Below, piece by piece: positions 1 to 57,957 of a stretch of 64,000 nucleotides of DNA. Origin of the DNA: Pseudomonas sp. GTDB taxonomy: Bacteria > Pseudomonadota > Gammaproteobacteria > Pseudomonadales > Pseudomonadaceae. The DNA lies in NCBI GenBank assembly GCA_030656145.1, contig JAUSOF010000042.1, positions 1-64,000 of the forward strand, read 5' to 3'. A model generated the notes under the pieces. It saw nothing but the letters and a program-made list of their open reading frames with translations. It had not been told where the DNA came from and did no database searches. Within the stretch, counting starts at the first letter, position 1. Each line of letters opens with the position of its first letter. Position numbers and translations under genes: made by a program.

Positions 1-120
1 TAACAGTCTTACCTCACAAGCACCCACACGAATTGCTTGATTCAATTGTTAAAGAGCGGTGGTTGATTCTTTCGTCTCAACCGAGGCGCGCATTCTACAG
101 CAGCCTCATGTTCCGTCAAG
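1..120 (-). promoter_or_regulatory. rRNA operon leader with boxA/boxC-like antitermination sequences (16S beyond left edge)
   Basis: Minus strand reads CGCTCTTTAACAATTGAATCAAGCAATTCGTGTGGGTGCTTGTGAGGTAAGACTG, the typical Pseudomonas pre-16S leader; boxA GCTCTTTAACA at 47-57, boxC-like GTGTGGG at 23-29. Confidence 0.85.
92..119 (-). promoter_or_regulatory. rrn promoter (proximal): TTGACG-N16-TAGAAT
   Basis: Reverse complement of 92-119; GC-rich discriminator GCGCGCC follows. Confidence 0.75.
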
Positions 121-210
121 CTTTTTTTCAAACCGATTTCCGAAGAAACCCTTTCTACTCAACCGCTTGCGCCTTCGATCAGCTCTAAGCTTCTCGTCAG
201 CGGGAGGCGA

Positions 211-238
211 ATAATACAGCGTTTAAAACCGCTGTCAA
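211..238 (-). promoter_or_regulatory. rrn promoter: TTGACA-N16-TATTAT
   Basis: Reverse complement of 211-238; near-consensus sigma70 boxes. Confidence 0.75.
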
Positions 239-314
239 CCACCTCATTACCGCTTCCGATTATCTCGGCTACATCGCCAGCAGCGCGTCTACTACCACCC
301 TGCCAGTCCGGCGC

Positions 315-342
315 ATTCTACACAGCTTTCGCTGCATTACAA
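315..342 (-). promoter_or_regulatory. rrn promoter: TTGTAA-N16-TAGAAT
   Basis: Reverse complement of 315-342; discriminator GCGCCGG. Confidence 0.6.
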
Positions 343-412
343 CCCCTCGCTTAAAGCTAACTTCTTGTTTTACAAGAGGTTTTAAGAGTGGCATGCGCCA
401 GAAGAGGTGCGG

Positions 413-440
413 ATTATAGGCCCAACAGAATCTACGTCAA
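413..440 (-). promoter_or_regulatory. rrn promoter (distal): TTGACG-N16-TATAAT
   Basis: Reverse complement of 413-440; -35 lies 4 nt past the tyrS stop codon. Confidence 0.7.
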
Positions 441-444
441 GGCT

Positions 445-1644
445 TTATTCGGCTTTTAGCGTAATACGCGCAAAAGCCTTCTTGCCCGCCTGGCAGACAT
501 GGGTTGCCCCCTGCTTATATATATAGAAGCGGTCTACCACCTCGCCATCTACCCGCACCCCACCGGAGCTGAGCAGGTCACGCGCCATGGCGGCGTTCTT
601 GACCAGGCCAGCCTTATTCAATAAGGCCGCGATCGGCATATCCTCAGTCGACACCAATTCGATTTCCGGTAAATCTTCTGGAAGCTCACCCTCCTTCATG
701 CGATTACCCGCCGAACGATGAGCGCTCGCTGCAGCCTCCTCTCCATGAAAGCGCGCGACTATCTCTTCCGCCAGCTTGATTTTGATATCACGCGGATTGG
801 CTCCGTTATCGACATCGAGCTTGAACTGAGCAATTTCTTCCATCGAGCGGAAGCTTAGCAACTCGAAGTAACGCCACATAAGCACGTCAGGGATGGACAC
901 AAGCTTGCCGTACATGACGCCGGGCGCTTCCTGGATACCCACATAGTTGCCCAAGGACTTGGACATCTTCTTTACGCCATCCAACCCCTCGAGCAAAGGC
1001 ATGGTGACAATGCACTGCGAGGCCTGACCATAGGATCGCTGCAACTCGCGCCCCATGAGCAAATTGAACTTCTGATCAGTGCCCCCCAGCTCGACATCCG
1101 CGCGCAAAGCAACGGAGTCATACCCCTGCACCAGTGGGTAGAGGAACTCGTGAATAGCTATAGGCTGATTGGTCGAGTAGCGCTTACTGAAATCATCGCG
1201 CTCGAGCATGCGCGCAACCGTGTACTGCGAGGCCAGCCGGATAAAGTCAGCCGGGGTCAGCTGATCCATCCACGTAGAGTTGAACGCAACCTCAGTCTTT
1301 GCTGGATCGAGGATCTTGAACACCTGGGCTTTGTAGGTTTCGGCATTCGCCAGCACCTGATCACGCGTCAACGGCGGCCGGGTTGCGCTCTTACCACTCG
1401 GATCACCAATCATGCCGGTAAAATCGCCGATCAGAAAAATCACCTGATGGCCCAGCTCCTGAAACTGCCGCAGCTTATTAATAAGCACGGTGTGCCCGAG
1501 ATGGAGATCCGGCGCAGTCGGGTCGAAGCCCGCCTTGATGCGTAGCGGCTGGCCACGCTTAAGCTTTTCTACCAGCTCGGATTCAACCAAAACCTCTTCT
1601 GCACCGCGCTTGATCAGCGCGAGCTGCTCTTCGACCGACTTCAT
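445..1644 (-). CDS. tyrS: Tyrosyl-tRNA synthetase (TyrRS-Z type)
   Basis: [19 protein letters not shown] start, HLGHT and KMSKS motifs, C-terminal S4 domain; the ORF-track start at 1737 is over-extended. Confidence 0.95.
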
Positions 1645-57837: not shown

Positions 57838-57867
57838 TTGGCACTACAGAGCAAGCACCGGTATAAT
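57838..57867 (+). promoter_or_regulatory. Candidate tRNA promoter TTGGCA-N18-TATAAT
   Basis: TATAAT ends 13 nt before tRNA nucleotide 1. Confidence 0.6.
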
Positions 57868-57880
57868 CCGCCGGCTTCTG

Positions 57881-57957
57881 GGGCCCATAGCTCAGTTGGT
57901 TAGAGCAGAGGACTCATAATCCTTTGGTCCACGGTTCGAGTCCGTGTGGGCCCACCA
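57881..57957 (+). tRNA. tRNA with CAT anticodon, probably tRNA-Ile2 (lysidine-modified), encoded CCA
   Basis: Full cloverleaf GGGCCCATAGCTCAGTTGGTTAGAGCAGAGGACTCATAATCCTTTGGTCCACGGTTCGAGTCCGTGTGGGCCCACCA; C4-G69/C5-G68 pairs and AGAGCAG...TTGGTC resemble E. coli ileX rather than metT. Confidence 0.92.

Follow-up and report, generated by a model that had tools for sequence, protein, structure and literature searches.

Four predicted sigma-70 promoters in series upstream of a Pseudomonas rRNA leader

Introduction

What is known about the regulation of rRNA promoters comes mostly from Escherichia coli, the rrn operons of which carry two tandem promoters (PMC4696680). At one end of the window studied here, i.e., the whole stretch of 64,000 nucleotides of Pseudomonas DNA analyzed, an initial annotation had placed four promoters upstream of a 16S gene. 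This raises the question as to whether four promoters actually serve a single rRNA operon at this locus, how they arose and what purpose they might serve. In our opinion, four separate promoters of the sigma-70 (RpoD) type, arranged in series and sharing a single leader, very probably make up this rRNA operon control region. Three- and four-promoter arrays of this kind, in which the number of promoters varies between operons and an IHF-like site is conserved, would provide a natural test of the role of extra rrn promoters, and would extend the two-promoter prediction published for KT2440, an engineering strain.

Promoters located between tyrS and the rRNA leader

Read on the minus strand, positions 444 to 1 begin where tyrS ends and continue into an rRNA leader. 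The features of this region, listed in the order of transcription, are as follows:

445 to 1644, minus strand: tyrS (tyrosyl-tRNA synthetase), an ORF of 399 amino acids with up to 97% identity to named Pseudomonas TyrS proteins; the tyrS-rrn neighborhood also occurs in relatives.
413 to 440, minus strand: P1, TTGACG-N16-TATAAT, discriminator CCGCACC, predicted start at about 406-404 (sequence and consensus scan).
315 to 342, minus strand: P2, TTGTAA-N16-TAGAAT, discriminator GCGCCGG, predicted start at about 308-306 (sequence and consensus scan).
211 to 238, minus strand: P3, TTGACA-N16-TATTAT, discriminator TCGCCTCC, predicted start at about 204-202 (sequence and consensus scan).
92 to 119, minus strand: P4, TTGACG-N16-TAGAAT, discriminator GCGCGCC, predicted start at about 85-83 (sequence and consensus scan).
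61 to 82, minus strand: boxB-like hairpin of the antitermination leader, GGTTGA...TCAACC (sequence; kept in relatives).
47 to 57, minus strand: boxA, GCTCTTTAACA (sequence; conserved), which served as the anchor for comparisons between rrn regions.
19 to 29, minus strand: boxC, GTGTGGGTGCT (sequence), named after the analogous element of the E. coli leader.

The named TyrS nearest to that of the window is the P. tumuqii protein (97% identity), and the window belongs to Pseudomonas. The four minus-strand box pairs of the sigma-70 type described in the initial annotation, each with a spacer of exactly 16 bp, were all found between tyrS and the boxB/boxA/boxC leader, the only slip being the start of P1, which lies at 440 and not at 435. 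These promoters do lead into the boxA/boxC leader, as had been stated, whereas the 16S gene is absent from the window: the contig (C14) ends at window position 1, and the 16S gene lies off the contig. In two relatives (L113 and L036), it is present at the homologous position. An Rfam search on the first 3 kb of the window gave no matches, as was to be expected since the 16S gene is off the contig.

The distances from one -35 start to the next are 98, 104, and 119 bp. A consensus scan of positions 1-2000 on both strands returned exactly these four sites, as compared with a mean of 1.3 in shuffled sequences, and sites with an N16 spacer occurred on one strand of the 444-bp region at a mean rate of 0.05 per shuffle, with a maximum of 2, in 5000 dinucleotide shuffles. 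Nowhere else in the 64 kb did a 400-bp stretch carry at least three of these sites on the same strand. The four sites exceed chance, and more than one sigma-70 promoter is present in series and conserved. No terminator-like (intrinsic) site was recognized between P1 and boxA.

The GC-rich discriminators previously reported were also recovered, the GC content of the first 7 nt being 71-100% at all four promoters versus 61% in the window. The 24 nt upstream of each -35 box, which correspond to the UP-element region, are 50-62% AT in this 61% GC window.

Conservation of the promoters

Three rrn upstream regions were identified in the draft assembly, on contigs C14, C72, and C81, each of which has the complete set of four promoters with N16 spacers; the assembly being a draft in 96 contigs, the true number of rrn operons may exceed three. 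Across the genus, P1, P3, and P4 occur in almost all the tyrS-linked rrn operons of named Pseudomonas species whose contig reaches them. P2, in the form TTG[CT]A[AC]-N16-TAGAAT, is conserved in a subset of lineages: it is present in P. seleniipraecipitans, Pseudomonas sp. G34, P. composti, P. chengduensis, P. turukhanskensis, P. fluvialis, and two Stutzerimonas, and absent from the fluorescens-, putida-, syringae-, and aeruginosa-type species examined. On the TyrS tree, the presence of P2 requires at least five changes, the divergent lineage L086, which looked P2-positive in the operon scan, being scored as unknown; since the root of this tree was not inferred, it does not distinguish between the gain and the loss of P2. 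Three promoters are the usual state in the Pseudomonas set examined and four are present in a subset of lineages, and the four-promoter state is therefore not peculiar to this genome but one version of a layout found across the genus.

The length of the spacers was nearly constant: among 76 distinct rrn regions, it amounted to 16 bp at 232 of the 251 sites scored (lengths of 14-19 bp being allowed), although these counts come from related regions and are not independent data. P4 is present in every region kept in this comparison, where it served as the selection criterion, and its universality cannot be read from this set. In 10 homologous four-promoter regions, the identity was 0.91 in the box columns versus 0.66 elsewhere (p = 3e-9, a value which again does not come from independent data, the regions being related); because these regions were picked partly for their four promoters, the informative part is the contrast between boxes and spacers. 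None of the spacers in these 10 regions showed any gaps, and the spacer identity was as low as 0.41 in P1 and 0.55 in P2 without any change in length, while the P3 spacer (0.90) was conserved like its boxes. Likewise, in 43 distinct P1 sequences, the spacers drift while the boxes and the distance between them stay fixed; the 16-bp distance is almost invariant even where the P1 and P2 spacer sequences drift. No loss of the boxes was observed in the close relatives, and they are also kept in the other rrn copies. The comparison across the genus makes each of the predicted promoters credible, and what can be read directly from the sequence is a series of four candidate promoters with rrn-type GC-rich discriminators and a shared leader, the boxes and spacing of which are conserved.

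Alternatively, only two or three of the promoters (P3, P4, and perhaps P1) might be active, P2 being a weak relic retained partly through shared descent. P2 has the weakest -35 box of the four (TTGTAA, 4/6 to the consensus) and is missing in lineages of the fluorescens, putida, syringae, and aeruginosa types; in some of these, the P1-P3 length is unchanged at 203 bp. However, where P2 is present, the identity of its boxes amounts to 0.93 as against 0.55 in its spacer (10 four-promoter regions), and P2 occurs in lineages as distant as Stutzerimonas, P. composti, and P. fluvialis. We consider the relic explanation unlikely, although it deserves to be kept in mind, and retain that involving four working promoters.

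Origin of the array and changes in promoter number

It had initially been suggested that the array arose by promoter duplication for a high initiation capacity, which is taken here to mean a recent tandem duplication of one promoter. The equal spacers, the similar boxes and discriminators, the roughly even spacing, and the 12-nt string TGTAGAATGCGC common to P2 and P4 are in keeping with this idea, but the strings common to the units consist of the consensus -10 box plus the discriminator, and the flanks of the units gave almost no similarity: neither the 45 bp upstream nor the spacers resemble each other from unit to unit more than shuffled sequences do, and the 25 bp downstream show a marginal likeness in the case of P1-P4 and P3-P4 only. 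Recent duplication, which is very improbable in view of the little that the units share beyond the consensus parts, was rejected; a very old duplication is still conceivable.

One change in promoter number could be traced, in Pseudomonas sp. 8Z, which carries one four-promoter operon and one tyrS-linked three-promoter operon. In the latter, the sequence upstream of P1 is joined to that downstream of P2 exactly at the shared TAGAATGCGCGCC; when the two loci (L117 and L116) were compared, the hybrid P1/P2 join was found at an identical 13-bp -10/discriminator repeat. This fusion, the sole traceable event of its kind, is a loss, and the sequence of the join is consistent with a deletion between promoter cores. 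In addition, the tandem rrn copies located directly behind a 5S gene, in 8Z (L118) and in another genome (L115, in G014), have P4 only. The 8Z and tandem-copy cases therefore bring the range of promoters per operon to one to four.

That P1 might serve another transcript or the regulation of tyrS instead of rRNA synthesis, as its location 4 bp past the tyrS stop codon and about 350 bp from boxA might suggest, is very improbable: no gene was recognized in the stretch separating P1 from the rrn leader, and this promoter is in place on contigs C72 and C81, where the upstream sequence is not tyrS and the similarity to the window ends at the P1 -35 box or within about 20 bp before it.

IHF-like site and dyad in the P3 spacer

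Another conserved element was found between P1 and P2:

358 to 370, minus strand: IHF-consensus-like site AAACAAGAAGTTA, matching WATCAANNNNTTR at 8 of 9 positions; it forms the right half of a dyad at 381-359.

A match of 8-9 out of 9 to WATCAANNNNTTR is present 40-42 nt after the -10 box of nearly all the Pseudomonas P1s, including those of P2-less operons, as against about 1.5 scores of 8 or 9 per 109 in shuffled sequences, and the column identity of the site is 0.87 versus a background value of 0.66. This match with the consensus, at a fixed place across relatives, is a putative IHF site. The only other near-match in the genome, on contig C74 (2 mismatches to a longer pattern), immediately precedes TGGCAC-N5-ATGC, a sequence similar to a sigma-54 promoter; such a position is a usual one for IHF. 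As regards the dyad after P1, the covariation exceeded that of column shuffles, but slid controls scored equally high and RNAalifold predicted no pairs; on these grounds, the idea of an RNA hairpin was dropped and a DNA site was favored.

A conserved dyad, ACAGC-N10-GCTGT, lies within the P3 spacer. In this genome, the whole motif was found at the rrn copies and nowhere else, and its interpretation as a general operator was rejected.

Comparison with known systems and proposed mode of control

The E. coli rrn operons resemble the window in that two sigma-70 promoters, P1 and P2, lie about 120 bp apart before a boxB/boxA/boxC leader (PMC4696680) and the discriminator is GC-rich (PMC7822876); they differ from it in the number of promoters (two versus four). 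At E. coli rrn P1, a strong UP element and Fis sites are known. The E. coli rrnB P1 spacer measures 16 bp, and a 16-bp spacer is a feature of rrn P1 promoters.

Serial promoters also precede the mycobacterial rrnA operon, located downstream of murA, where up to five have been described in M. chelonae (PMC10218544); this array is unrelated in terms of both sequence and lineage, and promoter usage was measured there, whereas it is predicted from the sequence here. In P. putida KT2440, two rrn promoters per operon have been predicted, which the authors state are not characterized in detail (PMC6505042); the one proximal to the 16S gene corresponds in kind to P4, and the second one upstream most likely to P3. 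In our scan, by contrast, a third promoter, P1, was present in the putida-group operons, which have no P2 as defined above. Since two promoters per operon were predicted in KT2440, the third promoter and the P2 variant appear to be under-annotated. Streptomyces coelicolor rrnD has four tandem promoters, the same number as the window, in a different lineage and with different promoter types. No description of four-promoter Pseudomonas rrn operons was found in the open-access literature searched, and no rrn start positions were found in the parts consulted of the published Pseudomonas start-site maps, including the PAO1 dRNA-seq map (PMC5870498). Multi-promoter rrn regions are already known in other bacteria, and the present array, though real, is a fairly ordinary variation on a known mode of bacterial rRNA synthesis.

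In the scheme proposed, each promoter would start a transcript running through the shared boxB/boxA/boxC leader into the 16S gene, so that a common antitermination signal, provided by this leader, would be present in all four transcripts. All four promoters would fire, P4 acting as the core promoter and P1-P3 adding an output that differs with the growth state. The most likely reason for having several promoters would be their differential use with growth, by analogy with E. coli, where rrn P1 and P2 are used differentially in this way (PMC4696680). The four-promoter state would be one state of a genus-wide array, in which the number of promoters might change when P2 is lost or gained and when promoter cores recombine with each other. 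On a broader and more tentative level, which we regard as possible rather than probable, the Pseudomonas rrn control region could be a modular array comprising one to four units and an IHF site integrated after P1, in which the number of units varies between lineages and between the operons of a single cell, the turnover occurs by recombination between identical -10/discriminator cores, and the whole serves as an evolvable dial on rRNA output.

GC-rich discriminators have been linked to DksA/ppGpp sensitivity in E. coli (PMC7822876). The combination of a GC-rich discriminator with a non-optimal spacer, which characterizes stringently controlled promoters of the rrn P1 type, occurs at all four promoters (71-100% GC; spacer of 16 bp in each case). 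It is plausible that the GC-rich discriminators confer stringent control: together with the short spacer, they may lead to unstable open complexes and hence to sensitivity to ppGpp/DksA and the initiating NTP, as in E. coli rrn P1.

Elsewhere in the window, at 57838-57957 on the plus strand, there is a tRNA-Met gene with a promoter-like TTGGCA-N18-TATAAT and a GC-rich discriminator; the GC-rich discriminator is common to this site and the rrn promoters, and the 16-bp spacer is not.
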